Shown here: piece by piece, positions 3,525 to 26,704 of the stretch
Layout: each line of letters starts with the position of its first letter
Position numbering within the stretch: position 1 is the first letter of the stretch
Source: Dickeya fangzhongdai
GTDB lineage: Bacteria; Pseudomonadota; Gammaproteobacteria; Enterobacterales; Enterobacteriaceae
DNA: 64,000 nucleotides
Direction of reading: 5' to 3'
Assembly (NCBI RefSeq): GCF_002812485.1
Contig: NZ_CP025003.1
Location: 2,232,001 to 2,296,000, forward strand
Notes under the pieces: model-generated
What the model was told of the DNA's origin: nothing
What the model saw: only the letters and a program-made list of their open reading frames with translations
The model's database searches: none
Translations under genes and position numbers: made by a program

Positions 3525-4160
3525 TTATTTCGCCAGAAGCACGTAGGCGAGAATGGGCTCTATTTTTTGAGGAGAGCGCAGCCAAGTGTTGAAAACGTTA
3601 CCTAGGCCCTTTTGCTTATATTCGGCATCGCAACTGCCCGATGTTCCTTTTACCCCGAGCCCAAAGGTGCCGCCGCCTTCCGCTTTGATTTGGCAGTGAT
3701 GCTTACTGTTGAAATCACTGTAAAGCCAGCCTGGTTCTATCGTACTGAATTGAATTATGACACCGGGTTTTTCGATGGTCAGATATTGAGCTGCGTAAGT
3801 ATATTCCGGTGTAATGCCGCAAAAGCTGTCCTGTTGCACGCAGGGTAGGGTTGTATATTTATTGGCGTCGAAAGTTTTGTATTCGGCAAATTGCATACCT
3901 CGATACCAGTACATCGCTTTGGCCGCATTCTCATCGGTAGCGCGGACTTTGGGATTAACAAGGATAAGTTTGTTCGGCGTTTCAGTTTGAATCTGTAGGC
4001 CGCCATTCTGGTACATGCTCAGTACCCGCGTATTATCCAGTCCGTTCTTTTTGATCAGGCTTTCCACTTTTGCGTCCGCCGCTGATGCACCCTGGCTAAT
4101 CAGGGACGCCAGCACAGCACCTAACATCGTGAGTTTGTAGCCTCGTATTTTTTGTTGCAT
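3525..4160 (-). CDS. Exported protein of unknown function, possible ADP-ribosyltransferase-like fold
   Basis: 211 residues, not recognised as a named family. Residues 1-27 form a signal peptide (KIRGYKL, then a hydrophobic stretch, then cleavage at ASA-AD), so the product is periplasmic or secreted. The start at 4160 has AAGGAAA 7 bases upstream. The mature protein has four cysteines that could form two disulfides (PCVQQDSFC; HHC and SGSC). The central order YRGM - GITP - EYTYAAQYL - GVIIQFS resembles the arginine strand, second motif and following strand of ADP-ribosyltransferase folds. This is an inference from pattern only, and no clear catalytic ExE was seen. The gene stands alone, convergent with the amidohydrolase and upstream of nothing co-transcribed. 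Confidence 0.6.
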   Translation of the reverse strand: MQQKIRGYKLTMLGAVLASLISQGASAADAKVESLIKKNGLDNTRVLSMYQNGGLQIQTETPNKLILVNPKVRATDENAAKAMYWYRGMQFAEYKTFDANKYTTLPCVQQDSFCGITPEYTYAAQYLTIEKPGVIIQFSTIEPGWLYSDFNSKHHCQIKAEGGGTFGLGVKGTSGSCDAEYKQKGLGNVFNTWLRSPQKIEPILAYVLLAK

Positions 4161-6517: not shown

Positions 6518-7108
6518 TTACATCTCCAGAAAATTCTTCAGTAGCTGGGCACCCGCCGCGCCGGAGCGTTCCGGATGGAACTGGACGCCATAGAAGTTAT
6601 CCTTCTGCACCGCGGCGGTAAAGGCATCGCCATAGTGGGACTGGGCAATGGTACTGGCGCAAACCGGCATGGCGTAGCTATGCACAAAGTAGAAGTACGA
6701 GCCGTCCGGAATATCGCGGAACAGGCGGTGACCGGCCTGCGGCGTCACCTGATTCCAGCCCATGTGCGGCAAGGGCAGGCCGCGATCGACCATCGGCACC
6801 ACCGGCGTATCGATGAGACCCAGCGTATCCACGCCGTTATTCTCGTCGCTACGGCTGCCCAGCAACTGCATGCCGAGACAAATGCCCAGCACCGGCTGGG
6901 TACAGGCTTTAACCAGGCCGATCAACTGACGTTCGGCCAGTTGCTCCATCGCCGCCTGCGCGGTACCGACGCCCGGCAGAAACAGTTTATCGGCGCGCAG
7001 CACCACCTCCGGTTCGCGGCTGACCTGCGGGTCATACCCCAGCCGCTTGACCGCGTACATCACGGAAGACAGGTTGGCGCACCCGGTATCCAGAATCACC
7101 ACATTCAT
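6518..7108 (-). CDS. hisH: Imidazole glycerol phosphate synthase, glutaminase subunit
   Basis: 196-residue class I glutamine amidotransferase that supplies ammonia to HisF. The catalytic triad is visible: Cys77 in GICLGMQ, and His178 and Glu180 in VQFHPE. The oxyanion region PGVG is at 45-48. The start at 7108 is chosen because it gives the family N-terminus [12 protein letters not shown] and overlaps the hisB stop codon by one base (TGATG). A longer frame open upstream has no support in the family. Confidence 0.97.
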
Positions 7109-12879: not shown

Positions 12880-14838
12880 TCAAAAGGAAGCCCAGTCGTC
12901 CTGATGATTTTTAGCGGCCGGTTTCGCCGATGCCTTACCGGCGGCGGGCAGAGCCTGCAGCGGGCGGCGCGGGTTATTTAGCGCAGCAGGGCGCGGTGAC
13001 GTCGCCGGGGATTCGGACAACCGGAACGTGGCGACCAGTTTTTCCAACAGCATCGCCTGTTCTTCCAGCGCATTGGCGGCAGAGGATGACTGCGAAACCA
13101 GCGCGGCGTTTTGCTGCGTGGTGCTGTCCAGTTCGGTTATGGCGCGGGAGATCTGTTCGATACCGCGGCTTTGCTCTTCCGAGGCGGAGGAAATCTCGCC
13201 CATAATATCGTTAACGCGGGATACCGAGTTGACGATGCTCTCCATGGTTTGTCCCGCTTCCGCTACCAGCGTACTGCCGGCATTGGTTCTTTCCACGGAT
13301 TCGGCAATCAGGGCGGCGATATCTTTGGCGGCCTGAGAGCTACGCTGGGAAAGGCTGCGCACCTCGCCGGCCACCACGGCAAAACCACGTCCTTGTTCGC
13401 CGGCGCGAGCGGCTTCCACGGCGGCGTTCAGCGCCAGAATGTTGGTCTGGAAAGCGATGCTATTGATGACCGCGGTGATATCGGCGATTTTCCTCGAGCT
13501 GGCGGCGATATCATCCATAGTTTTCACCACGTTTTGCACCACTTCGCCGCCTTTATGCGCATTTTGGGATGCGTCGGAAGCAATCTGGCTGGCATGACGG
13601 GCGTTTTCCGTGTTGTTCTTCACCGTTGACGTCAGTTCTTCCATGCTGGCGGCGGTTTGCACCACGGCGGCGGATTGCTGTTCGGTTCGGGAGGCGAGAT
13701 CGCTATTGCCGGCGGCAATGTCGGCGGCAGAATGGGTGACATGACCAACGCTGTCGCGGACATCGGAAATCATCTGACGCAGACGGTCGTTCATGGCGGC
13801 CATCGCGGCGGTCAGCTTGCCCAGTTCATCGTGGCGATCGACGTTGATAGTGGCGGTCAGGTCGCCGCTGGCGATGCGTTCCGCCAGCATCAGGTTATGC
13901 ATTACCGGGCGGGTGATCTGGCGAATGATATAGACGGCAATCAGGATACCGATGATCACCGCGATCAACCCGATCAGCAGTGTAATGTTGGCTGAACCGT
14001 ACGCCAGCGCATCGTTCTGGTTTTTCACCGTCGTGATCAGAGATTTGATCACCGCGCTGCTTTTATCCCCGCCGGTTTTCACGGCATTTTCCGCTTTTTT
14101 CAGATCGCTCCAGGCACGGGAATAGTCCTGATTCTGCGAGGCGTATTGCCCGGTGTATTTCCAGAGATCTTCCACCAGTTTCTGCGTTTCGCCGGAGAGC
14201 GTCGGCAGCAGAGCCTGATAAGCCTTCTGCACCTCGACATAGCGGCTGCTAAACGCCTTGGCGGCATCGTCAGTGCCGGTAAGCTGCAATTCATACGAGA
14301 GGTTCTTCAGCGACGCGGTGGCGTAAGCCAATTCATCCACGCGCTGGTACAACGCGGTGTCCAGTTGCTGATTTTGCAGGCCGTCGCGAAAACTTTTGAC
14401 GGCATCCTGCGCATTCAGCGTGGCGATCTGCTTTCTCAGCGCGACCACCTGTTGCGTGGCGGCTGACATATCTGCGACCGATTTCTGGAAATCCACCATG
14501 ATCTTATCCAGATCATTGATGTAACCGAGTTCGTCGCTGTGCCAGGAGAGCGTGTGGGCGCTTTGGGTCAGGTCGGCGGCGTGTTTGACGAAGCCGGTCA
14601 GAACGGTTTGCGTGCTGTCGTCCGGAGTATAGAAATATTTCAGGCGGTTGATTTTGGCCTGGAAGACTTCAATGTTGATGTTGTAAATCAGATTGGTTTT
14701 TTCGTAGATATCGCGAATGTCGCGAAAGCGTATCGCGCTGAGTGAGGAAGCCATTACCACCAGCAATAACACTACGCCGAATCCCAGGTAGAGTTTGTGA
14801 GAAATTTTGGTATTTTTTATCGTGCTGCTGAACCCCAT
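12880..14838 (-). CDS. Methyl-accepting chemotaxis protein with HBM-sized ligand domain
   Basis: 652-residue transmembrane chemoreceptor. TM1 is about 16-35 and TM2 about 285-305. The ~250-residue all-helical periplasmic domain between them is the size of a helical bimodular (HBM) domain, known from P. putida McpS, which senses TCA-cycle acids. A HAMP domain follows (about 305-358), then a methylation helix pair around the signalling tip [25 protein letters not shown]. The C-terminus DDWASF resembles the CheR/CheB-tethering pentapeptide (xWxxF). The start has AAGGAG 7 bases upstream. The neighbours are citrate-sensing and citrate-use genes, so a carboxylic-acid ligand is inferred. A sigma-28-like promoter lies upstream. 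Confidence 0.93.
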
Positions 14839-14940
14839 TGCCGTACTCCTTGAAATAAATTACCTGAGTGTTGTTATTGGTCTGGTGCTGTGAACGTCGG
14901 TGGTGCATAAGCCACGTTTTTGCGACGTCCGGTCAGTGTG

Positions 14941-14968
14941 TTATCGGTGCCTGCAGTATAGAGATTTA
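14941..14968 (-). promoter_or_regulatory. Sigma-28-like promoter of the chemoreceptor gene
   Basis: On the minus strand TAAATCTC, 12-bp spacer, ACCGATAA. The -10 matches the FliA consensus GCCGATAA at 7 of 8 bases. The -35 matches TAAAGTTT at 5 of 8, and the spacer is one base longer than usual. It lies about 100 bp upstream of the start codon. Confidence 0.5.
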
Positions 14969-15184
14969 GTTGTACTTGCGCTGCTTGATAGTTTTTTGTG
15001 ACGTGAGGCTGTTTATCTGGCGAAATGCCTAAGTACGTTAGGTCTGTTGACTGAAATCGACGGCCGGCTGGAAACGCGCCATTCTGCCGCTTACCGAGCC
15101 ACCGCACACCCCTGGCATGCTGGTATCACAGGGGCTTTCATACCGTGAACACATACCGTGAAGAGGCGGCTGGTGAGGGGGAAC

Positions 15185-15214
15185 GCCATACCGACAAGAG
15201 GCGGTCGGTATGGC
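15185..15214. terminator. Stem-loop after dpiA with flanking repeats
   Basis: Perfect 11-bp stem GCCATACCGAC/GTCGGTATGGC with an 8-nt loop, 30 bp past the dpiA stop. CATACCG also occurs at 15139 and 15152. The last copy is followed by AAGAGGCGG, as is the copy in the stem, so the stem seems to have grown from a local duplication. No T-run is present. Confidence 0.55.
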
Positions 15215-15243
15215 GGGCAGGAAAGGGCGCTCGAACGCGCGTG

Positions 15244-15969
15244 TCAGTCCAGGTGTTTTTTGCGGTAGAGGCGCCGGGGGTGGCCAATCTTGCCGTAGCG
15301 CATTTCTACATCCAGAAAATGGTTTTCAAGCCCGAACTCCAGATAACGCCGGGCGGTGGTTTTGCTTAATCCGGTTTTTTCCACCACTTCATCCACGGAG
15401 AACAGGGCTTGTGGATCGTCCTGAAAGATCTGTTTGATCAGACTAAGGGTGTTTTCTTCGATGCCTTTGCTGCCCGGCCCGTTAGGTATGGTAGACGCCT
15501 GCAACTGATAAAGCACGTCCACGTTCTGCTGATCGACGACCTTGTAGGTATGCTGGGTTTTGACGAACTGGATAAAGCGCTCCAGCGATGAGCGCAGCCG
15601 CGGATAGGACACCGGCTTGATGATGTAATCAAAGGCGCCGCACCGAATGGCTTGCGCGCAGGTGTTCATGTCGCTGGCGGCGGTGATGAAAATCACCGAA
15701 CAGTTGATGCTGCGCATCAGGTCGCTTTCGATCAGCTGAACGCCTTCGCCGTCCGGCAGGTAGTTATCCAGCAGCATCAGACGGGGTTTGTACTGTTGCA
15801 GCATGCGTTTGGCTTCGTTCAGGGTTGACGCAGTGCCCACCACCCGCAGCGCGAAATTCTTTTCGATAAATTCCGCGTGGATATTTGCCAGCTTTCTTTC
15901 ATCTTCAACGATCAGTACGTCGAAGTTTTCAATGGTTCGTTCAGTCGGCATGGTGCTCGCAATCGGCAT
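15244..15969 (-). CDS. dpiA: Response regulator of the CitB/DpiA family
   Basis: 241 residues. The receiver domain (about 16-135) has the acidic pair ED, the phosphoacceptor Asp in LLDNYLPDGEG, Thr/Ser in ITAASD and Lys in IIKPVSY. The C-terminal part has a winged-helix segment with the CitB-type motif GLSKTTARRYLEFGLE and ends in GKIGHPRRLYRKK. This family activates citrate or C4-dicarboxylate transport and fermentation genes. It is co-transcribed after its kinase (24-bp gap). A 15-bp repeat with 18-bp period duplicates the start codon region, so translation can begin at 15969 or 15951. The second gives a length closer to E. coli DpiA. Confidence 0.93.
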   Translation of the reverse strand: MPIASTMPTERTIENFDVLIVEDERKLANIHAEFIEKNFALRVVGTASTLNEAKRMLQQYKPRLMLLDNYLPDGEGVQLIESDLMRSINCSVIFITAASDMNTCAQAIRCGAFDYIIKPVSYPRLRSSLERFIQFVKTQHTYKVVDQQNVDVLYQLQASTIPNGPGSKGIEENTLSLIKQIFQDDPQALFSVDEVVEKTGLSKTTARRYLEFGLENHFLDVEMRYGKIGHPRRLYRKKHLD

Positions 15970-15993
15970 GGTGCTCGTATTCCCTGTTTTTGG

Positions 15994-17589
15994 TTATATG
16001 GTGGTTTTTGGAATGAAAATAGAAAAAATAGCGCCGTGAGGCGAATTGTCAGAAACCTCGATCACACCCTGTGCCTGGCTGACATAGCTGGAAACCAGAT
16101 GCAGGCCCAGCCCGTGATCGCCTTCCTGTTTGCTGGTGACGCCCATTTCAAATACCCGATCCGCAATGGCGGGGTCAATCCCTGTACCTTGATCGGCGAC
16201 TTCAATGACCAGTTCCTGCTCACCATCGTGGATATACACTTCGACAGGATGGTAAGCCGGGGTACTGGCCAGTGTGGCTTCTACTGCATTATCGATTAAA
16301 TTCCCAATAATTGACATCAACTCTGTTTCACTGAGGGACGCAGGGATGCCGCTGAGCTGGCAGCGCGGATCAAAACGCAGTTCGATGCCTTTTTCTCGGG
16401 CGCTGGCGTATTTACCCAGCAGCAGGCCGCAAAGCGCCGGGGAACAAAAGCGGCTGGAGATAAAATCCAGCACTACCTGCGCCCCTTCGGACTGCGCCTC
16501 AATGTAACGCACGGCTTCATCATAACGGCGTAAATGCAACAGCCCGGCCAGCGTGGCGGTCCAGTTCAGTTGTTCGTGCCGCAGAATGCGCAAGCTGTTG
16601 GCGTAGCGTTTCACCTGGCTGAGCTGCATGCTCAGGGTGTGGAGGTCGTTCTTGTCGCGAAAACTGATGACCCAACCTTGCAGTTCGTCCTCCAGCATAA
16701 TGCGTACGCGGCTGGCGATAACCGTAATCTGGTTGAAGCGGCAGATCTCATCATGGGTATCGTTGACCCAGATGTCTTTATTGGAGAAAAACGGCACCGG
16801 CGCGATGACATCATCGATCGGTTTACCGCGTAACTGATATGAGGGCATGGTCAGACCAAGCAAATCTTTTGCCGCATGGTTGATCACCGCGATGTTACGC
16901 TGCTTGTCGATGGCGATCACGCCTTCATAAATGGACTCCAGCAACGCCTTTTGCTGCCTGACCAGCAACCGGATTTCCAGCGGCTCCAGCCCGAACATCT
17001 GCTTTTTCAGGTTACGGGAAAACCACCAGGAGAAAAAGAACAAGGCGACCAGCATGGCGACGATCGCCAGGCCGACATGGGCGACTTTACTGAATGTCAG
17101 GTTGTCGATGCGCTTTTTCAGATACCCCACCGAGACAATGCCGATAACCTGATCGCCTTCCATGATCGGCGCTTTACTGCGCAGCGAAATACCGATGGCG
17201 CCACGGCGCAGCGTGATGGTGCTTTGCCCTTCCAGCACCTCTTTGTTATCGCCGCCGATCATTTCGGTGCCGAGCAGCGAGGGTTCTTCCGAGTGATAAA
17301 GGTGGGTGGCGTTGCGATCGCCGATAACGATAAAGCTGGCGTCGCTGCGTGCTTTGATTTGGTCGACCAGGTCGTCGATGGTGGCGGTGTCGCCGTGTTT
17401 TACCGCCTCAACCAGTGAGGGAATAATCGCGATTTCACGCGCCTGAATCTGCGCCCGGCTGCCCAGTTCATCATAAAGTTGCTGGTCTACCGCCCGGTAA
17501 TAGTAAAGCCCCGCGGTGATAAGCAGCAGAGAAAAAAAGATCATCAGGTAGATGAACAGCTTGAGATGGAACGGTAGCCTGACAGTCAT
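15994..17589 (-). CDS. dpiB: Sensor histidine kinase of the CitA/DpiB family
   Basis: 531 residues. TM1 is about 7-28. The periplasmic PASp domain of ~140 residues contains the ligand region around DASFIVIGDRNATHLYHSEEPSLLG, typical of citrate/C4-dicarboxylate sensors. TM2 is about 172-192, followed by a cytoplasmic PAS domain (EGVIAIDKQRNIAVINHAA). The kinase core has the unusual H-box ILRHEQLNWTATLAGLLHL, the N-box NLIDNAVEA, and ATP-lid segments DQGTGI and GDHGLGLHLV. The protein is in the inner membrane. It is divergent from the transporter gene it presumably controls, through a 427-bp regulatory region. Confidence 0.93.
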   Translation of the reverse strand: MTVRLPFHLKLFIYLMIFFSLLLITAGLYYYRAVDQQLYDELGSRAQIQAREIAIIPSLVEAVKHGDTATIDDLVDQIKARSDASFIVIGDRNATHLYHSEEPSLLGTEMIGGDNKEVLEGQSTITLRRGAIGISLRSKAPIMEGDQVIGIVSVGYLKKRIDNLTFSKVAHVGLAIVAMLVALFFFSWWFSRNLKKQMFGLEPLEIRLLVRQQKALLESIYEGVIAIDKQRNIAVINHAAKDLLGLTMPSYQLRGKPIDDVIAPVPFFSNKDIWVNDTHDEICRFNQITVIASRVRIMLEDELQGWVISFRDKNDLHTLSMQLSQVKRYANSLRILRHEQLNWTATLAGLLHLRRYDEAVRYIEAQSEGAQVVLDFISSRFCSPALCGLLLGKYASAREKGIELRFDPRCQLSGIPASLSETELMSIIGNLIDNAVEATLASTPAYHPVEVYIHDGEQELVIEVADQGTGIDPAIADRVFEMGVTSKQEGDHGLGLHLVSSYVSQAQGVIEVSDNSPHGAIFSIFIPKTTI

Positions 17590-17791
17590 AATGTGCTAAT
17601 CACCGGTAAAGCGCGGAAACGAAGATGGCTAATTTATCATGAAAGGCGTACAAGAAAGGGTATAAAAAATAGTCTTGTGAAGCGCTCCGCGTAAATTGTG
17701 AAAATAGTATTCTTATTTCTGCATTTTTAAATAAAGCGTAAATTAAGCGTCACGGACAGAGGACATTTTAATTACTTTTTTTCAACATATA

Positions 17792-17807
17792 ATTCCATCG
17801 ACGGAAT
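17792..17807. repeat. 16-bp near-palindrome in the dpiB-citS control region
   Basis: ATTCCATCGACGGAAT is self-complementary at 14 of 16 positions. It lies 200 bp before dpiB and 210 bp before citS, in otherwise AT-rich DNA, so it is a possible operator. No regulator is recognised. Confidence 0.5.
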
Positions 17808-17823
17808 AGGTGCCATTCGCTTC

Positions 17824-17917
17824 ATAAAAACCATAAAAACCACGAAAATAATCCTCGCTTGATGATCTTTTATTTTATTGATTTATAATCGAAAATTAAT
17901 AAAAACCATAAAAACCA
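17824..17917. promoter_or_regulatory. Paired 19-bp repeats, candidate DpiA/CitB binding sites
   Basis: ATAAAAACCATAAAAACCA occurs exactly at 17824-17842 and 17899-17917, 75 bp apart (about seven helical turns). Each copy is itself two tandem 9-bp units ATAAAAACC plus A. The AT-rich direct-repeat form fits CitB/DcuR-type response regulators. Copies lie 28-120 bp upstream of the CRP site. Confidence 0.65.
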
Positions 17918-17942
17918 TAAGCACCATTAAAACTCATTTTTT

Positions 17943-17994
17943 AATTTGAGGATTGTCACATAATAATTGGTGTTGAGCTCTTACTATGCCCGGG
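17943..17994 (+). promoter_or_regulatory. CRP site and class II promoter of citS
   Basis: TTTGA-N6-TCACA (17945-17960) matches the CRP core at 9 of 10 bases, with AA before it. Its centre is 17952.5. A -10 hexamer TACTAT lies at 17982-17987, placing the start near 17994, so the CRP centre is at -41.5, the class II position. No good -35 is present, as expected for an activator-dependent promoter. Confidence 0.7.
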
Positions 17995-18016
17995 AAAATA
18001 ACAAGGGGAGAAAGTT

Positions 18017-19384
18017 ATGAGTACCACTGATGATTCTTATATCGTTGTAAAAGATGAGGCCTCTGGGAAGGTTTCATTAAAAGAAAAATGGTGGCATGTT
18101 CTGGATAACTATAAAATTGGTGTTATTCCAGTGCCGCTGTTTATCCTTGCCGGGCTATTGATTGCACTGGACTGCCTTGAAGGGAAACTGCCCAGCGATA
18201 TCGTGGTGATGGTCGCCACGCTGGCGTTCTTCGGTTTTGCCTGTGGTGAGTTCGGTAAGCGTTTGCCGCTTATCGGCAAAATGGGTGCGGCGGCTATCTG
18301 CGCCACCTTTATTCCGTCTGCGCTGGTGTATTACGGCCTGCTGCCGCAGGTAGTTGTAGACTCCACCACCAAATTCTATAAATCCACCAACATTCTGTAT
18401 CTGTATATCTGCTGCATTATCGTCGGCAGCATCATGAGCATGAACCGGCAGACGCTGATTCAGGGCTTCCTGCGTATTTTTTTCCCCATGCTGTGCGGTG
18501 AAATAGTGGGCATGATTGTCGGTATGGGCGTCGGCATTATGCTGGGGATGGACCCGTTCCAGATCTTCTTCTTCCTGGTGCTGCCGATCATGGCTGGCGG
18601 CGTGGGTGAAGGGGCGATTCCGCTTTCTATCGGTTACGCCACGCTGCTGCACATGGAACAGGGCGTCGCGCTGGGCCGTATCCTGCCAATCGTCATGCTG
18701 GGCAGCCTGACCGCTATCGTTCTTGCCGGTGTACTGAATCAACTGGGTAAACGTTATCCGCACCTGACCGGTGAAGGCGACCTGATGCCGAACAAGGCAA
18801 ACGGCACCGAACAGGCTCCGGCCACACTCACCAGCACGCTGAGCGGCAAAATGGACCCGGCCAATCTGGCTGCGGGCGCTCTGCTGGCTATCTTGCTGTA
18901 CATGATCGGTATGCTGGGCTACAAGCTGATTGGTCTGCCGGCCCCGGTAGGCATGCTGTTCGCCGCGGTGATCGTGAAACTGCTCAATGGTGCGTCTCCG
19001 CGTCTGCTGGAAGGCTCCCAGGTGGTTTACAAATTCTTCCAGACGTCTGTGACCTATCCGATTCTGTTCGCCGTTGGTGTGGCGATCACGCCGTGGGAAG
19101 AACTGGTGCACGCGTTCACCATTACCAACCTGCTGGTGATTGTTTCCACCGTGGTAGCGCTGGTTACCACCGGTTTCTTCGTCGGCAAGAAAATCGGTAT
19201 GCATCCGATTGATGTTGCCATCATCTCCTGCTGCCAGAGCGGGCAGGGCGGTACCGGCGACGTGGCTATTCTCACCGCCGGCAACCGTATGGTGCTGATG
19301 CCATTCGCTCAGATTGCTACCCGTATTGGTGGGGCAATCAACGTCTCCGTGGCCTTGCTGGTTCTTGGCAAGTTCCTGGTGTGA
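18017..19384 (+). CDS. citS: 2-hydroxycarboxylate (citrate) : Na+ symporter, CitS family
   Basis: 455 residues, inner-membrane secondary transporter of the 2HCT family (CitS, CitP, CimH). Eleven or more hydrophobic segments are seen. The two re-entrant-loop signatures GGVGEG (PIMAGGVGEGAIPLS) and GGTGD (SGQGGTGDVAI) mark the two inverted halves. The C-terminal NRMVLMPFAQIATRIGG contains the arginine region used for carboxylate binding. In Klebsiella CitS imports citrate with Na+. The ribosome site AAGGGGAGAAAGTT lies just upstream. It is first in the cluster, divergent from dpiBA, under a CRP-type promoter. Malate or another 2-hydroxy acid remains possible. Confidence 0.93.
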   Translation: MSTTDDSYIVVKDEASGKVSLKEKWWHVLDNYKIGVIPVPLFILAGLLIALDCLEGKLPSDIVVMVATLAFFGFACGEFGKRLPLIGKMGAAAICATFIPSALVYYGLLPQVVVDSTTKFYKSTNILYLYICCIIVGSIMSMNRQTLIQGFLRIFFPMLCGEIVGMIVGMGVGIMLGMDPFQIFFFLVLPIMAGGVGEGAIPLSIGYATLLHMEQGVALGRILPIVMLGSLTAIVLAGVLNQLGKRYPHLTGEGDLMPNKANGTEQAPATLTSTLSGKMDPANLAAGALLAILLYMIGMLGYKLIGLPAPVGMLFAAVIVKLLNGASPRLLEGSQVVYKFFQTSVTYPILFAVGVAITPWEELVHAFTITNLLVIVSTVVALVTTGFFVGKKIGMHPIDVAIISCCQSGQGGTGDVAILTAGNRMVLMPFAQIATRIGGAINVSVALLVLGKFLV

Positions 19385-19409
19385 CGGTTGTATGACAAAA
19401 ACAAATAAC

Positions 19410-19427
19410 GCCGCGATAGCAAGCGGC
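19410..19427 (+). terminator. Weak hairpin after citS
   Basis: Five-bp stem GCCGC/GCGGC with an 8-nt loop followed by CTTATTT. It could lower expression of the downstream genes relative to the transporter. Confidence 0.35.
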
Positions 19428-19448
19428 CTTATTTAAACAGGAAAGATT

Positions 19449-20333
19449 ATGAAACTTGCAAGTTACCGCCATCACGGCAAAAACAGCTACGGGATCCACA
19501 CGCCTGCGGGCCTGATTGATTTGGGAAGCCGGCTCGGCGACCGTTATTCGGACCTGAAAGCGTTGCTGGCTGGCGATGCGCTCCAGGAAGCTGCGGCTTT
19601 CCAGAGCGAGACTCCGGACGTCGCCGTGGCAGACGTGACCTTCCTGCCGGTGATTGTGGCGCCGTCCAAAATCCTGTGCGTCGGCATGAACTACGCCGAC
19701 AAACGTAAAGAGTTCAACGAACAGAACCCGGCGCCGACGCTGTTTGTGCGTTTCGCCGACTCGCAGACCGGCCACGGCACCCAGGTGCTCAAGCCGCACT
19801 ACTCCAGCGAGTTCGACTATGAAGGCGAGCTGGCGGTCATCATCGGTAAAGATGGTCAGAACATCAGCCGCGACGAAGCGCTGTCGTTTGTCGCCGGTTA
19901 CAGCTGCTATATGGACGGTTCCGCCCGCGACTGGCAGCACAGCTGGTTTACCGCCGGTAAGAACTGGCAGAAAACCGGTGCGTTCGGGCCTTACCTCACT
20001 ACCCGTGACGAAATTCCGGATCCGCACGCGCTGGCCATCCGTACCTACCTGAACGGCCGCATGGTACAGGACGACAATACCGCCAGCATGATTCACAAAG
20101 TGGCGGATCTGATTGAGTACATCAGTACCTTCACCGCGCTGAGCGCCGGTGACGTGATTATTACCGGTTCGCCTGGCGGCGTCGGTAAGAAACGTACTCC
20201 GCCGCTGTTCATGAAACCGGGCGACAGCATTGAAGTGGAAATTGAAAACGTGGGTCACCTGCGCAACACCATTGGTGAAGTCGCTCAGCCGGTGAAAACC
20301 CCGCGAGCGGCACCCGCCGCTGTGGGGCACTGA
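19449..20333 (+). CDS. Fumarylacetoacetate hydrolase (FAH) family protein, possible oxaloacetate decarboxylase
   Basis: 294 residues with the FAH C-terminal catalytic fold (about 75-285). Metal-site residues are in FDYEGELAVIIG (ExE) and the following Asp region MDGSARDWQ. The substrate-proximal GMNYADK and the late ITGSPGGVGKKRTPPLFMKPGD are also present. FAH enzymes act on 2-oxo acids as hydrolases, isomerases, decarboxylases or tautomerases. FAHD1 and C. glutamicum Cg1458 decarboxylate oxaloacetate. It sits between citS and citC, exactly where citrate fermenters need oxaloacetate removed, and oadGAB genes are absent here. The role is inferred from context and homology, not shown. Confidence 0.85.
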   Translation: MKLASYRHHGKNSYGIHTPAGLIDLGSRLGDRYSDLKALLAGDALQEAAAFQSETPDVAVADVTFLPVIVAPSKILCVGMNYADKRKEFNEQNPAPTLFVRFADSQTGHGTQVLKPHYSSEFDYEGELAVIIGKDGQNISRDEALSFVAGYSCYMDGSARDWQHSWFTAGKNWQKTGAFGPYLTTRDEIPDPHALAIRTYLNGRMVQDDNTASMIHKVADLIEYISTFTALSAGDVIITGSPGGVGKKRTPPLFMKPGDSIEVEIENVGHLRNTIGEVAQPVKTPRAAPAAVGH

Positions 20334-20340
20334 CAGGCAT

Positions 20341-20362
20341 CGCCTCCGGTTCGCCGGAGGCG
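20341..20362 (+). repeat. Stable TTCG-tetraloop hairpin between the FAH gene and citC
   Basis: Nine-bp stem CGCCTCCGG/CCGGAGGCG closed by a TTCG loop, starting 7 bp after the FAH stop. There is no T-run, so it is more likely an mRNA-stabilising or processing element than a strong terminator. Confidence 0.65.
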
Positions 20363-20408
20363 TCGACCCCACGAGTTATGTGGTACAGCAAAAAGCAGGA
20401 TAACCGTT

Positions 20409-21452
20409 ATGTACGCCGATGAGAGTTTTACTTTTTCCACGCTGGATGTTCGCGTCCAACCCCGTGAAGTGGCTGAAGTCAGTCAGTTTCTCGGGATGTG
20501 CCAGTTGGGCATGGACAAGGATATCGAGTTTTTTGTGGTGGGCAGGCATAACGGCCAACTGGTTGCCTGTGCCGGGTTGTGCGCGAATACCATCAAGTGT
20601 GTGGCGGTGGATCCCGGCTATCGTGACCTCAACCTGGGGGTGAAAGTGGTGAACGAGGTGGTGCAGTTCGCTGCCGAACGTGGCCAGTTCCATCTGTTTC
20701 TCTACACCCGCCCCTGCAATATCACGGTTTTCCGCGGTTGCGGTTTCTACCCGCTGGCCTGTTATGAAGACAAGGCCGTGTTGATGGAAAATACGCCTAT
20801 CGGCATCAAACAGTATTGCCAGTCCCTGGCGACACAGGTCAAACCGGGTCGGGATATCGGCACCATCGTGATGAACGCCAACCCGTTCACGCTGGGGCAT
20901 TGTTATCTGGCGGAGCAAGCCGCCCGCGCCTGTGACTGGCTGCATATTTTCGTGGTGCGGGAAGATGTGTCCTTTTTCCCGTTCACCGAACGGCTGGACA
21001 TGGTACGTCAGGGGGTGGCGCACATCCCGAATCTGACGGTTCACGCCGGGTCGGAATACATGATCTCCAAAGCCACGTTTCCGGGCTATTTCCTGAAAGA
21101 AGAGCAACTGATTACTCAGGCCCATGCGGCGCTGGATCTGATCATCTTTCGCCAGTACATCGCACCGGCGCTCGGTATTACCCGGCGCTTTGTCGGCACA
21201 GAACCCTTCTGCCCGGTAACGCACCGTTATAACCAGGATATGCACCACTGGCTGGAGCAGGCCGGGCAGGTTGCCGCGCCGGCGCTGGAAGTGGTGGAAA
21301 TTGAACGCACTCGCGAACACTCCGGCCTGGCGATTTCCGCCTCTGAAGTGCGCCGGTTACTGAAGCTGCGTCAGTTTGAACATATCCGCGAGATCGTCCC
21401 GGCGACTACGTTTGCGCATTTACAACGCTATGGCGAACTCGCCTGTGCGTAA
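20409..21452 (+). CDS. citC: [Citrate (pro-3S)-lyase] ligase
   Basis: 347 residues. It acetylates the prosthetic group of citrate lyase using acetate and ATP, switching the lyase on. The N-terminal ~130 residues resemble a GNAT-type acetyltransferase domain. The C-terminal part is a nucleotidyltransferase with the HxGH-like motif NPFTLGHCYL, and EHSGLAISASEVRRLL near the end corresponds to the ISxS/T motif. First of the citCDEFXG set, with the classical enterobacterial order. AGGATAACC lies upstream of the start. Confidence 0.95.
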   Translation: MYADESFTFSTLDVRVQPREVAEVSQFLGMCQLGMDKDIEFFVVGRHNGQLVACAGLCANTIKCVAVDPGYRDLNLGVKVVNEVVQFAAERGQFHLFLYTRPCNITVFRGCGFYPLACYEDKAVLMENTPIGIKQYCQSLATQVKPGRDIGTIVMNANPFTLGHCYLAEQAARACDWLHIFVVREDVSFFPFTERLDMVRQGVAHIPNLTVHAGSEYMISKATFPGYFLKEEQLITQAHAALDLIIFRQYIAPALGITRRFVGTEPFCPVTHRYNQDMHHWLEQAGQVAAPALEVVEIERTREHSGLAISASEVRRLLKLRQFEHIREIVPATTFAHLQRYGELACA

Positions 21453-21484
21453 CGTGTTTTTAATGTATTAAGCAGGTAAACAAC

Positions 21485-21775
21485 ATGAAAATTATCAAGG
21501 AGGCCCTGGCGGGCACCTTTGAATCCAGCGACTTGCTGGTCAAGGTGGCGCCGGCGGAAGGCCAGTTGACCGTGGTGATAAACAGTGAAGTCATCAAACA
21601 GTTTGGCGCACAGATCAAGCAGGTGGTGAACGACACCCTGAGCACGCTGGGCGTAGAGTCCGGCACCATCGTGGTTGAAGACAAGGGCGCGCTGGATTGC
21701 GTAATTCGTGCCCGGGTGCAGAGCGCCGTGCTGCGTGCCGCCGATGTTGATCAGATTGACTGGGAGAAACTGTGA
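21485..21775 (+). CDS. citD: Citrate lyase acyl carrier protein (gamma subunit)
   Basis: 96 residues. It carries the 2'-(5''-phosphoribosyl)-3'-dephospho-CoA arm that CitX attaches to a serine. Ser14 in AGTFESSD aligns with the modified Ser14 of E. coli CitD (AGTLESGD). The C-terminal [20 protein letters not shown] is conserved. The stop overlaps the citE start by one base (TGATG), coupling the two subunits. Confidence 0.96.
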
Positions 21776-22665
21776 TGAGCACCACTCAGCCGAAAAAACT
21801 GCGCCGTAGTATGCTGTTCCTGCCGGGCGCGAATGCCGCCATGTTGTCCAACGCTTTCATCTACAAACCGGACTCCATCATGTTTGACCTGGAGGACGCC
21901 GTTTCCCTGCGTGAGAAAGATACCGCGCGCCTGCTGGTTCACCATGCGTTGCAGCACCCGATGTATCAGGGCATCGAAACCGTGGTGCGTATCAATCAGC
22001 TCAATACTCCGTTCGGTCTTAAGGATCTGGAAGCGTCTGTGCGAGGCGGCGCGGATGTCATCCGTTTGCCGAAAACCGACTCTACCGACGATGTCGCCGA
22101 GCTGGAACACCATCTGGCGCGCATCGAAAAAGAGTGCGGTCGTGAAGTCGGTTCGACCCGCATCATGGCGGCGATCGAGTCCGCGGTCGGGGTGATCAAT
22201 GCCGTGTCTATCGCCCGCTCCTCCGAGCGCATGATCGGCATCGCGCTGGCGGCGTTCGACTATGTGATGGATATGCAAACCGAACGCGGCGACGGCACCG
22301 AGTTGTTCTATGCCCGCTGCGCGGTGCTGCATGCCGCTCGCGCTGCCGGTATCGACGCCTTTGACGTGGTGTACTCCAACGTCAACGACGAAGAAGGGTT
22401 CCTGAAAGAAGTGGAACTGATCCGCAAACTGGGCTTCAACGGCAAATCGCTGATCAACCCGCGCCAGATTGAACTGCTGCACAACGCCTACGCGCCGACT
22501 CAGGATGAGGTGGACTACGCTCATCTGGTCATCAAGGCGGCGGAAGACGGCGAACGCGCTGGTTTGGGGGTAATTTCGCTGAACGGAAAAATGATCGACG
22601 GCCCGATTATCGACCACGCCCGCCGGGTGGTGGAGCGTGCGCTGGCCTCCGGCGTGCGCAAATAA
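21775..22665 (+). CDS. citE: Citrate lyase beta subunit (citryl-ACP lyase)
   Basis: 296 residues, (beta/alpha)8 barrel of the HpcH/HpaI aldolase family. It cleaves citryl-ACP to oxaloacetate and acetyl-ACP with Mg2+. The N-terminal [14 protein letters not shown] and [12 protein letters not shown] (metal Glu/Asp), [12 protein letters not shown] (substrate Arg), and the Glu of [14 protein letters not shown] are visible. The start ATG at 21775 overlaps the citD stop. A GTG one codon upstream is also in frame. An unusually long gap of 106 bp follows before citF. Confidence 0.96.
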
Positions 22666-22771
22666 ACGCAGGCCGGGTAACCGGATGGAGTCTGGTTTGT
22701 AATAGTTTCCGCACTGGCCAGCTGGCGGCGTGATAGCGCGCTAGCGGGCCTCGCAATGACAGGATTGGATC
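22666..22771. other. 106-bp gap between citE and citF
   Basis: citE and citF normally abut or overlap. Here a GC-rich spacer holds small palindromes (GGCCAGCTGGC at about 22715; TAGCGCGCTA at about 22735) and ends in a weak ribosome site GGATTGG. No open frame or terminator was found. Confidence 0.6.
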
Positions 22772-24301
22772 ATGAGTAACTTTATTGAAGCACTGCAGAA
22801 GCAATATCCAGAAAAAAGCCATCTGCAACCGTTCGTCAATGCCAACCACAGTACCCCCTGGCTGAATGACGTCACCGAAAAACACCAGCGCAAGCTGTGC
22901 GCCGATCTGGAAGAAGCCATTCGCAAAAGCGGGCTGCAGGACGGCATGACGATTTCGTTCCACCACGCGTTCCGTGAAGGGGACAAGGTGATTAACCACG
23001 TGGTGGACACCCTGGCCCGTCTGGGTTTTAAAAACCTGACGCTGGCTTCCAGTTCGTTGATGACCTGCAACGCGCCGCTGATCGAGCATATCCGCAATGG
23101 CGTGATTACCCGTATTTACACCTCCGGCATGCGCGGCAAGCTGGCGGACGCCATCTCTCACGGCCTGATGAAAGAGCCGGTACAGATTCACTCTCACGGC
23201 GGCCGCGTGCATCTGCTGCAGAGCGGCGAGCTGAAGATTGACGTCGCATTCCTCGGGGTGCCGAGCAGCGACGAATTCGGCAACGCCAACGGCACGTCGG
23301 GTAAATCCCGCTGCGGCTCGCTCGGCTACGCGATGGTCGATGCGCAGTACGCCGGTAAAGTAGTGCTGCTGACCGAAAGTCTGGTGCCGTTCCCTAACAT
23401 GCCGGCCAGTCTGGTGCAGGATCAGGTGGACTTTGTGGTGCCGGTGGAAGAAGTCGGCGACCCGGCGAAAATCAGCGTAGGCGCGGCGCGCGTCACCAGC
23501 AACCCGCGTGAACTGCTGATTGCCCGCAGCGCGGCAGACGTGATCGAACACTCCGGCTATTTCAAACCGGGCTTTTCGATCCAGACCGGTTCCGGCGCAG
23601 CGTCTACCGCCTGTACCCGTTTTCTGGAAGATCGCATGCAGAAGCAGGGCGTGGTGGCGAGTTTCGCACTCGGCGGCATCACCGGCAGCATTGTCGACTT
23701 GCATGAAAAAGGACTGATTGAAAAGCTGCTGGACACCCAGTGCTTTGACGCCAACGCCGCGGCATCGCTGGCGAAGAACCCCAACCATGTGGAAATCTCC
23801 ACCAATGTCTACGCCAACCCCAGCTCCAAGGCCGCCTGCTGCGACCAGTTGGACGTGGTGATTCTGAGCGCGCTGGAAATCGATACCCAGTTTAACGTCA
23901 ACGTGATCACCGGTTCCGACGGTGTCATGCGCGGCGCGTCCGGCGGCCATTGCGACGTGGCGACGGCGGCTAACCTGACTATCGTGGTCGCGCCGTTGAT
24001 TCGCAGCCGTATTCCGACGGTAGTCCGTCAGGTAACGACCTGCGTGACGCCGGGCAGCGCCATCGACGTGTTGGTGACTGACCACGGCATCGCCGTTAAC
24101 CCGGCGCGTCCGGATGTAGCGGAACGCCTGATCAACGCCGGTCTGAGCGTGATGTCGATTGAAGAACTGTACCAGCGTGCGATTCAACTGGTGGGCGAAC
24201 CTAAAGCCATTGAATTCCACGATCGCATCGTCGGGGTGATTCGCTACCGTGACGGCAGCGTGATTGACGTGGTACGTCAGGTTAAAGAGGACAACGAGTG
24301 A
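22772..24301 (+). CDS. citF: Citrate lyase alpha subunit (citrate:acetyl-ACP transferase)
   Basis: 509 residues. It swaps the acetyl group on the acyl carrier protein for citrate, so CitE can cleave it. CoA-transferase fold: the half containing TISFHHAFREGDKVIN and a second half with GSGAASTACTRFLEDRM and GGVTGS-like GGITGSIVDLHEKG. The length matches E. coli CitF (510). The stop overlaps the GTG start of citX by 4 bp (GTGA). Confidence 0.96.
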   Translation: MSNFIEALQKQYPEKSHLQPFVNANHSTPWLNDVTEKHQRKLCADLEEAIRKSGLQDGMTISFHHAFREGDKVINHVVDTLARLGFKNLTLASSSLMTCNAPLIEHIRNGVITRIYTSGMRGKLADAISHGLMKEPVQIHSHGGRVHLLQSGELKIDVAFLGVPSSDEFGNANGTSGKSRCGSLGYAMVDAQYAGKVVLLTESLVPFPNMPASLVQDQVDFVVPVEEVGDPAKISVGAARVTSNPRELLIARSAADVIEHSGYFKPGFSIQTGSGAASTACTRFLEDRMQKQGVVASFALGGITGSIVDLHEKGLIEKLLDTQCFDANAAASLAKNPNHVEISTNVYANPSSKAACCDQLDVVILSALEIDTQFNVNVITGSDGVMRGASGGHCDVATAANLTIVVAPLIRSRIPTVVRQVTTCVTPGSAIDVLVTDHGIAVNPARPDVAERLINAGLSVMSIEELYQRAIQLVGEPKAIEFHDRIVGVIRYRDGSVIDVVRQVKEDNE

Positions 24302-24840
24302 GCGATGCTGCGATAGACTCAACGATCGCCGTCTCACTGGAAAGCCTGCTAGCGGCGAAGGAACGCCGCTGTGCCCGCCAGCAGCAATTGCTGGCGCGGC
24401 ACCAGTCTACGCTGGTGTCGCTGACGCTGGTGACGCCGGGTCCGGTTAAAGATTCGCCGCTATATCGCCGGGCGATGACGGAAGCGGTCGCGGCGTTCAA
24501 TGACTTGTGCCTGGCGCGCGGCTGGGAAGCGCTGGAGCAACAGTTGCACTGGCTGGATACCGGCGCAGAGGCATTCTGGGTCATCACCAAGGATGCATTG
24601 AGCGTTAAGGCGGCGGCCATTGCACTGGAAGATCAGCACCCGTTGGGGCGGCTGTGGGATTTTGACGTATTTTGTCCGCAGGAAGGGTCGATCAGCCGAA
24701 CGTTACTGGCGCATGATCGTCGTCGATGTATACTCTGTGATGAATCGGCGCATGCCTGCGCGCGTTCGCGCCGCCATGCGTTACCGGACGTGATTGAAAA
24801 AATCGAGGGTATCCTCCATGCCTGGTTTAACGCACACTGA
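24298..24840 (+). CDS. citX: Apo-citrate lyase phosphoribosyl-dephospho-CoA transferase
   Basis: 180 residues. It transfers the preformed prosthetic group onto Ser14 of CitD. Family patterns: SLESLLAAKERRCARQQQLL at the start, LVTPGPVKDSP, DFDVFCPQEG with conserved acidic residues, and the Cys-rich end RRCILCDESAHACARSRRH. The start is GTG, overlapping the citF stop. Its 3' end overlaps citG by 23 bp. Confidence 0.94.
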   Translation: MSDAAIDSTIAVSLESLLAAKERRCARQQQLLARHQSTLVSLTLVTPGPVKDSPLYRRAMTEAVAAFNDLCLARGWEALEQQLHWLDTGAEAFWVITKDALSVKAAAIALEDQHPLGRLWDFDVFCPQEGSISRTLLAHDRRRCILCDESAHACARSRRHALPDVIEKIEGILHAWFNAH

Positions 24841-25726
24841 GTCGAGTGTTTCCTCTCCGTTACTGACAACGCTATTTCCTGATGCCACCGGCGCGCTGGT
24901 GGCACTACCTACGATTCACCAGCAGGTGGCTGACGCCCTGACCATTGAGGTGATGCTGACGCCAAAACCCGGTCTGGTGGATCGGGATAACAACGGCGCT
25001 CATCGCGATATGGATGTGCCGCTGTTTCAGGCCAGTATCGCCGCGCTGGCTCCCTGGTTTTCACGTTTTACCGAAGCAGGCATGGCGCATAGCGCGTTGC
25101 CGATAACCCAGCTCCTGCCGCAGGCGCGGCCTATCGGCATCGCCGCCGAACAGGCGATGCTGGCTGCGACGGGCGGCGTGAATACGCACAAAGGCGGCAT
25201 TTTCGCCTTTGGATTACTGTGCAGCGCAGCCGGTTGGCTGGCGGGCCGTCGGCTACAACTGACGCAGGACAGCCTGTGCCAGTGCGCCGCGCGGATGAGC
25301 GCCGATTTGGTGCGTAATGAGCTGGAGAACAGCCAGCACACCGCGACGGCTGGAGAACATCTGTTCCGGCGTCACGGCTTGACCGGTGCGCGGGGAGAAG
25401 CCGCCAGCGGTTTTGCTACCGTTCGTCAGCATGCGCTGCCCGCTTATCTGCGCGCTCGCGCCCAGGGGCAGGACGACGAATCGGCCTTGCTGCAGACGCT
25501 GGTGGTATTAATGGCCCACAATCCGGATACCAACGTAGTCTCCCGTGGCGGAATGGAAGGGCTGGCGTTCGTACAGTCGCATGCGCGGGCATTGCTGTCC
25601 GGCGGTGTGACCCGACGGGGTCTGCAGGAGATGAATCAGGCGCTGGTCGAACGTAACATCAGCCCTGGCGGCAGCGCCGATCTGCTGGCGCTAACCTGGC
25701 TGCTTTCTCACTATCCCCGCGTCTGA
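24818..25726 (+). CDS. citG: Triphosphoribosyl-dephospho-CoA synthase
   Basis: 302 residues. It makes the citrate lyase prosthetic-group precursor from ATP and dephospho-CoA. Conserved segments: EVMLTPKPGLVDRDNNGAHRDM, TGGVNTHKGGIFAFGLL, HNPDTNVVSRGG and NISPGGSADLLALTWLL. The ATG at 24818 is preferred because GAGGGT lies 8 bases upstream. A TTG 24 bases earlier is in frame but lacks this. Last gene of the cluster; no citT follows. Confidence 0.94.
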   Translation: MPGLTHTESSVSSPLLTTLFPDATGALVALPTIHQQVADALTIEVMLTPKPGLVDRDNNGAHRDMDVPLFQASIAALAPWFSRFTEAGMAHSALPITQLLPQARPIGIAAEQAMLAATGGVNTHKGGIFAFGLLCSAAGWLAGRRLQLTQDSLCQCAARMSADLVRNELENSQHTATAGEHLFRRHGLTGARGEAASGFATVRQHALPAYLRARAQGQDDESALLQTLVVLMAHNPDTNVVSRGGMEGLAFVQSHARALLSGGVTRRGLQEMNQALVERNISPGGSADLLALTWLLSHYPRV

Positions 25727-25854
25727 ACCTCGTCTATTATTGGCAAGCAGTCCCCCCATTCTTTTCATGAGTTTTCGCCTCGCGCTGCGGGGCGTTACTG
25801 TGTGCCGGCATGTTCCATGCGTACAGTGCATAAGCGAATGAACAGATAAAACCC

Positions 25855-25881
25855 TAAAGTTGATGGCATGAATGTCGATAC
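25855..25881 (+). promoter_or_regulatory. Sigma-28 (FliA) promoter of ycgR
   Basis: TAAAGTTG, exactly 11-bp spacer, GTCGATAC, against the FliA consensus TAAAGTTT-N11-GCCGATAA: 7 of 8 and 6 of 8 bases. Transcription would start near 25889. It overlaps the most upstream in-frame ATG (25868), which therefore cannot be the start. Confidence 0.75.
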
Positions 25882-25972
25882 TAGTGCCATGCTGTATCCT
25901 GGGGGTTCTGGGACACTGAATGACGCATTAACCATTCAATTGACGGTGGGGATGGATGTAGTGGATAACAAT

Positions 25973-26704
25973 ATGAAAGAGCAGTACGCCAGGCGCAATA
26001 AAATGGCTATTTGCGCCACATTACGCGGACTGCAAAAGCAAGACGCCACAGTAATGGTGTATCACACGCACGGTCAGTTCATCAGCAAGATCCTTGAGGT
26101 TGATTCAGACGAAGAGGAGTTTCTGTTTGACCTCGGCGCGCTAGAGCGTGAAAACAGTCGGGCGTTGTTTGCGGGTGAACTGGAGTTTGCGGCAGAAACG
26201 GCTGGCGCCAAGGTTGAATTTCGTTCCACGATCATCAGAACGGTCGAACATGACGGTTTTCCCGCCTTCTGCGCGGCGGTTCCCGACGTGCTGTACTATA
26301 TCCAGCGCCGTAATTTTTTCCGCATCAATTCACCTGCCTGGCCGCCCATGAGCTGTCGGGGAGAGCTGCCGGATAACACCCATTTCGAATTTAGCCTGAA
26401 GGATTTGTCGCTGGGCGGTCTGTCTATGTACACCGACGACAAAGCGATGGCTGAATTGTTTGAACCGGGCATGCTCCTGAAAAACATTGATGTGGATCTC
26501 GCCAGCTACGGGCAATTCTGTCTGGACTTGCATTTTGTCAACCATGCCACCACCAAAGTCGTTGACAGTAAAGGCGAGGTGAAGCAGATCGAGCGTCTGA
26601 GCTTCAAGTTTTCGACGCTAAATGCCGCGCAAGAACGGGGATTACAGCAGGTGATAACCGAACTTGAACTGGATCAAAACGAAAAACGCAAACGGCTTCG
26701 CTGA
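25973..26704 (+). CDS. ycgR: Flagellar brake protein with PilZ domain, YcgR-like
   Basis: 243 residues. In E. coli YcgR binds cyclic di-GMP and slows the flagellar motor. The N-terminal YcgR domain (about 1-105) is followed by PilZ, with the c-di-GMP motif RRNFFR (112-117) and DLSLGG (144-149). Both halves of RxxxR / DxSxxG are intact. The start at 25973 is chosen for two reasons: a sigma-28 promoter at 25855-25881 rules out the upstream ATG at 25868, and this start gives almost the E. coli length (244) with EQ near the N-terminus aligned. 25952 is an alternative. Its position beside the chemoreceptor and citrate genes joins motility control to the module. Confidence 0.88.
   Translation: MKEQYARRNKMAICATLRGLQKQDATVMVYHTHGQFISKILEVDSDEEEFLFDLGALERENSRALFAGELEFAAETAGAKVEFRSTIIRTVEHDGFPAFCAAVPDVLYYIQRRNFFRINSPAWPPMSCRGELPDNTHFEFSLKDLSLGGLSMYTDDKAMAELFEPGMLLKNIDVDLASYGQFCLDLHFVNHATTKVVDSKGEVKQIERLSFKFSTLNAAQERGLQQVITELELDQNEKRKRLR

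Follow-up and report, generated by a model that had tools for sequence, protein, structure and literature searches.

A citrate-fermentation locus of Dickeya fangzhongdai with a linked chemoreceptor predicted to bind citrate and a neighbouring flagellar brake gene

In a 64-kb stretch of the Dickeya fangzhongdai genome (contig NZ_CP025003.1, positions 2,232,001 to 2,296,000; hereafter the window, within which all feature coordinates are counted), the genes between yeeZ and plaP form what is probably a CitW-type anaerobic citrate-fermentation locus of the Pectobacteriaceae, with a linked, probably FliA-driven chemoreceptor of the HBM type that most likely binds citrate, and with the flagellar brake gene ycgR as a bystander. 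This reading builds on gene content, conservation, linkage, a predicted fold and promoter matches, all of them shown here. A preliminary description had presented these genes as a single unit for sensing, swimming towards, importing and fermenting citrate. A citrate locus with a linked receptor, whose Pectobacterium homologues are needed for a citrate halo, survives from that proposal, and 'sense, import, ferment' is credible, but motor control and a single regulatory unit are not.

All of the named genes are open at the positions given here, and their products were searched with Pfam and NCBIfam models scored against curated cut-offs. A CitB/DpiA-type response regulator (citB, 15244..15969; Response_reg and a DpiA-type helix-turn-helix) and a CitA/DpiB-type sensor kinase (citA, 15994..17589; sCache_3_2) lie on the reverse strand. 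Divergent from them, on the forward strand, are a 2-hydroxycarboxylate transporter (2HCT) of CitW type, predicted to be a citrate/acetate antiporter (18017..19384), a FAH-family gene (19449..20333), citC (citrate lyase ligase, 20409..21452), citD (citrate lyase acyl carrier protein, 21485..21775), citE (beta subunit, 21772..22665), citF (alpha subunit, 22772..24301), citX (24298..24840) and citG (24794..25726, start uncertain). The MCPsignal, HAMP, 2HCT, FAH, Response_reg, DpiA-type helix-turn-helix, sCache_3_2, PilZN and PilZ matches all lie above the curated Pfam cut-offs, and citC, D, E, F, X and G exceed those of NCBIfam equivalog or equivalog-domain models; the NCBIfam equivalog cut-offs for DpiA, DpiB and CitS were not reached by the window proteins. 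This is an already known citrate-fermentation locus: in Pectobacterium versatile, citAB, a divergent citW and citYCDEFXG have been described with the same gene content and order, in a study where PhoP activated citW 3.8-fold and the locus showed poor expression (PMC7843439). The available part of that account makes no mention of an adjacent chemoreceptor or of ycgR, and the window locus is from Dickeya. We infer from its position that citY is the FAH gene.

Among nine Dickeya genomes (the window's own, G000, included), all have matches to citW and citF, so that the citrate genes hardly fit the earlier term 'accessory'. Six of the nine carry the receptor, always at the locus. The proteins of the locus in D. 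undicola 2B12 (L001) are 94-100% identical to those of the window. Two genomes carry a damaged operon. G005 lacks the FAH gene beyond residue 117, all of citC, and citD before residue 35, and its citrate lyase may be inactive, or the assembly wrong there; in G007 (L086), citF was matched in two separate pieces and may be interrupted or misassembled.

The sensor kinase domain is nearest to that of CitA, and the ligand residues H69, R107, K109 and S124 (in what we take to be the CitA numbering) are kept in 85/85 rows with residues there (86 examined), while the transporter retains R428 of CitS. Weighing against citrate as the substrate, T58 of CitA is replaced by V and R66 by H, likewise in 85/85 rows with residues there (86 examined), and R402 of CitS is Q in 88 rows (89 examined), so that the acid sensed or carried could be another tricarboxylate. 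The R402 and R66 replacements, found in all rows with residues there, also fit a transporter and kinase whose hydroxy-acid is malate or isocitrate instead, with the lyase secondary, as do database names that vary from malate permease to citrate/acetate antiporter. We consider such a role very improbable, given that the K109-type tricarboxylate residue is kept, that linkage to citrate lyase genes holds in most genera (not at 15 Serratia loci), and that the transporter was named CitW in P. versatile (PMC7843439).

The chemoreceptor, a methyl-accepting chemotaxis protein (MCP) with MCPsignal and HAMP domains, is encoded at 12880..14838 on the reverse strand; the 5.03-Mb window genome gave 47 matches to an MCP query. 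Its periplasmic ligand-binding domain (LBD) is encoded at 13984..14751 (reverse strand), and the model of receptor residues 30-285, a six-helix bimodular fold, matched McpS best, bearing out the HBM-sized domain noticed earlier. Against Pfam PF16591 the window LBD scored 19.8 bits (E 6e-4), below the gathering cut-off of 29.8, and the relatives P0024 and P0026 (52 and 51%) carry PF16591 as precomputed. McpS and McpQ of Pseudomonas putida share 11-12% sequence identity with the window receptor, and neither is known to be linked to a citrate locus. The receptor ends in ...DWASF, which resembles what we take to be the CheR-docking pentapeptide.

The prediction of a ligand comes from Pectobacterium brasiliense 1692, in which AED-0003671 (MCPcit1) and AED-0001492 (MCPcit2) were deleted: the citric acid halo of 2.3 cm in the wild type fell to 0.2 and 0.3 in the mutants and was 2.2 upon complementation, and for the other 23 of the 24 compounds in Table 1 the mutant halos were near wild type (PMC8100591, as far as the available part reports). 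The words 'cluster' and 'locus' do not occur in the main text of that paper. We mapped its primers onto the locus of a different strain, P. brasiliense CFBP8736 (L005), where six of the eight MCPcit1 primers (at 1356, 1411, 4463, 4798, 5468 and 5527; 0-3 mismatches) and all eight MCPcit2 primers (at 3687, 3857, 4775, 4784, 6727, 7070, 7790 and 7884; 0-2 mismatches, with 4 at 7070) bracket both receptors of the locus, between yeeZ and citB. None of four primers for xylose and aspartate receptors fell within the L005 locus, and shuffled primers matched in 0/400 cases at up to three mismatches and in 1/400 at up to four. On primer sequence, these matches identify the two P. brasiliense receptors at the locus as MCPcit1 and MCPcit2; when nine Pectobacterium genomes were searched whole with the receptor LBD, all 13 matches of at least 45% were the 13 at the locus. 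In the LBD tree the Dickeya clade groups with Symbiopectobacterium (support 1.0), and the two together join the yeeZ-proximal Pectobacterium copy, that is MCPcit1 (support 0.95), such that the Dickeya receptor shares both genomic place and clade with MCPcit1, its predicted orthologue. By analogy, we infer that it most likely binds citrate. The two systems differ in that P. brasiliense has two receptor copies and Dickeya one; moreover, PMC8100591, in the part available, classes the MCPcit LBDs as 4HB and gives an HBM profile for one of them. In Pectobacterium sp. PL152, one of the two locus chemoreceptors has an internal stop (L009:5906-6619).

Several observations weigh against a citrate receptor bound to this locus. 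The Dickeya LBD is only about 48-50% identical to those of the Pectobacterium receptors that were tested, so its ligand could differ, and growth of the P. brasiliense mutants on citrate was attenuated too, meaning that the halo test mixes growth with taxis (PMC8100591, abstract). The receptor has no match at E 1e-20 in Dickeya G001, G004 and G006, all of which have the citrate genes; it is likewise missing, with citrate genes present in each case, from P. aroidearum and P. zantedeschiae, where a 27% paralogue was the sole match, and from the Lonsdalea and Musicola-like loci, and it is therefore not required by the citrate locus. Homologues of 40-44% in Acerihabitans, Winslowiella, Kosakonia and Superficieibacter lie outside the flanks of their citrate locus. 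Conversely, the receptor gene is still open in G005 and G007, in spite of their damaged lyase operons. This last point, the modest LBD identity of about 50% with MCPcit1/2, and a closest fold, McpS, that was crystallized with malate and succinate could all be accommodated if the proximity of receptor and citAB were historical only and the receptor sensed another acid (e.g. malate, succinate or a citrate-metal complex). We judge this unlikely, as the receptor occupies the same genomic place as MCPcit1/2, the locus copies are its nearest tree neighbours outside Dickeya/Symbiopectobacterium, mutants in those copies lose the halo on citrate alone among 24 compounds, and the HBM receptors McpQ and McpS of P. 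putida have both been described as involved in citrate sensing (PMC8100591).

The promoter regions separate the receptor and ycgR from the citrate genes. Sigma-28 (FliA)-type matches, scored at up to two mismatches against what we take to be the FliA consensus, belong to the chemoreceptor gene (TAAA-N16-ACCGATAA, 14941..14968, reverse strand) and to ycgR (TAAA-N15-GTCGATAC, 25855..25881, forward strand), with a background of 0.043 matches per 460 nt in the window. The former recurs in 20/20 receptor rows from Dickeya and Pectobacterium (19 distinct), and the latter at 18 of 21 loci, including those of all nine Dickeya (not at L004, L009 and L011). The divergent citAB-citW promoter region instead holds two clusters of ACCATAAAA repeats (17821..17929), conserved with small variation in 10/10 aligned Dickeya and Musicola-like loci, which are candidate sites for binding by CitB. 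The repeat 16-mer has a single match at up to one mismatch genome-wide, and all window matches at up to two mismatches fall at 17821-17920, none of them at the MCP gene or ycgR. Given the FliA-type matches and the absence of this repeat, both genes look to be regulated separately from the citrate genes, contrary to the single regulatory unit first proposed. Tempering the assignment to FliA, of 27 further MCP genes inspected in the window genome just 6 have a match at up to two mismatches (17/27 at up to three). A 12-bp perfect stem-loop without a U-tract lies 3' of citB (15184..15215, reverse strand; folding z -4.9) and may separate transcription of citAB from that of the MCP gene; several relatives fold a similar stem there, and L001, L085 and L003 do not.

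The ycgR gene itself (25868..26704, forward strand) encodes the PilZN and PilZ domains of YcgR brakes, as in E. coli YcgR, both above the Pfam cut-offs, with an NCBIfam equivalog score of 221.8 against a cut-off of 400, and its product contains RxxxR and DxSxxG, presumably the PilZ-type motifs. In E. coli, ycgR is under FliA control and sits at a different genomic place. Because the conserved FliA-type -10 box follows the mechanically assigned ATG, that start is probably too far upstream, and the true start one of the later in-frame ATGs. PilZN (PF07317) occurs in exactly one gene per genome in 9/9 Dickeya, and G030 (L089), which has lost the two-component and lyase genes and retains a 2HCT remnant, still has ycgR and plaP (the ycgR match there holds one stop codon); ycgR is thus read as the core flagellar brake copy and a mere neighbour of citG, and with its own FliA-type match it drops out of the proposed unit. 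A co-regulated module, in which receptor, uptake, fermentation and flagellar brake act together on citrate, would draw on the physical clustering of the genes, the citrate-receptor relatives at the same place, and the adjacency of ycgR to citG (to the 2HCT remnant in L089) in all examined Pectobacteriaceae loci reaching that far. The separate FliA-type matches, the restriction of the repeat to the citrate promoter, the single PilZN copy that persists in G030, the missing receptor in three of nine Dickeya and the strong stem-loop 3' of citB leave such a module with very little likelihood.

The FAH-family enzyme bears on the oxaloacetate released by citrate lyase. In Klebsiella, the citrate cluster includes OAD_beta, of the Na+-pumping oxaloacetate decarboxylase. 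No OAD_beta gene was found in any of the nine Dickeya genomes, in a search whose control gave matches in two non-enterobacterial genomes out of 14 named ones, and the locus is accordingly not of the citS-oadGAB type, which carries this membrane component. The citW and citS/oad clusters of Klebsiella pneumoniae share the 2HCT transporter and citrate lyase with the window (PMC2453333, in the part available) but differ from the Dickeya operon, which includes a FAH enzyme. Since OAD_beta is missing, the FAH enzyme, in the 'citY' position, is a candidate for the oxaloacetate step, as a tautomerase or decarboxylase. What we take to be the metal-type E-x-E...D pattern of the family is kept (72 rows covering the pattern, of 74), and 74/74 FAH rows have Lys85 at a site that is His in the HpcE and 8sky sequences of the alignment, presumably a catalytic residue of those enzymes. 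FAHD1 has been reviewed as both an oxaloacetate tautomerase and decarboxylase (PMC12176266, available in part). We suggest only tentatively, and with somewhat more doubt than conviction, that the FAH-family protein is devoted to oxaloacetate (as a keto-enol tautomerase and/or soluble decarboxylase), replacing the Na+-pumping decarboxylase, with Lys for His; two other FAH-family genes in the window genome could share the task.

The block is flanked by his genes and what we take to be yeeZ at one end, and by what we take to be plaP and sbcB at the other; neither yeeZ nor plaP gets an NCBIfam equivalog match. In 9 of 19 other genera carrying both genes (a set without an E. coli genome), the pair is 0.4-2.6 kb apart (G009, G012, G017, G019, G025, G027, G031, G035 and G036), in line with the earlier view that the block is inserted between them. 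In the other ten, the spacing is 3.6 kb (G030), 6-7 kb (G028, G039) or >20 kb (G011, G024, G033), or the genes are on separate contigs (G010, G020, G032, G064). The citrate block lies between yeeZ and plaP in the eight Dickeya genomes with both block ends on one fetched stretch (the assembly of G002, D. oryzae, breaks within it), and also in the Pectobacterium and Lonsdalea loci and in the Musicola-like G022, which was left out of the 19-genus count; the insertion therefore predates the genus Dickeya. Outside the Pectobacteriaceae, citAB is present at 66 of 68 further 2HCT loci, and at none of the 68 is yeeZ, ycgR, plaP or the receptor found within the flanking sequence searched, which is short for some loci.

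A second FAH-citC-citDEF copy is found at another locus in G001, G004, G005 and G006 (L090, L091, L092 and L093), and possibly in G002 (L096); the window genome has one citF only. In L090 and L091 it adjoins a LysR gene, a PrpF-like gene, an MFS transporter and an AcnB-type aconitase, neighbours that suggest aconitate use. Where a genome has two sets of citDEF, these are 98.4-100% identical, versus 80-94% between most species and 97-98% between the close pairs G001/G006 and G002/G005. Both G005 copies (L084, L092) share the same internal deletion, which points to gene conversion or a recent duplication. A second 2HCT-family gene (G000:C1:4847719-4848981) is 35% identical to that of the window, and one such match of 35-36% occurs per genome in 9/9 Dickeya.

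We propose that CitAB would detect external citrate and induce citW and the FAH-citCDEFXG operon, that CitW would bring citrate in and acetate out, presumably by antiport, that citrate lyase would split citrate into acetate and oxaloacetate, and that the FAH-family protein probably takes oxaloacetate towards pyruvate. The HBM receptor beside citB, most likely binding citrate, would signal through the general Che pathway and be made with the flagellar regulon under FliA, not by CitAB. The citrate locus and this kind of receptor were already known; what is new is that MCPcit1 and MCPcit2 can be placed at the citrate locus, that the promoters fall into two groups, and that the FAH enzyme emerges as a candidate. 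Two results that are unconnected in the available parts of PMC8100591 and PMC7843439, the citrate receptors of P. brasiliense and the citrate locus of P. versatile, are thereby joined on one DNA stretch common to Dickeya. One of the 47 MCP matches in the window genome thereby gains a concrete predicted ligand, and a real linkage of catabolism and chemotaxis is told apart from the chance neighbour ycgR. A candidate enzyme also emerges for the handling of oxaloacetate in citrate fermentation.

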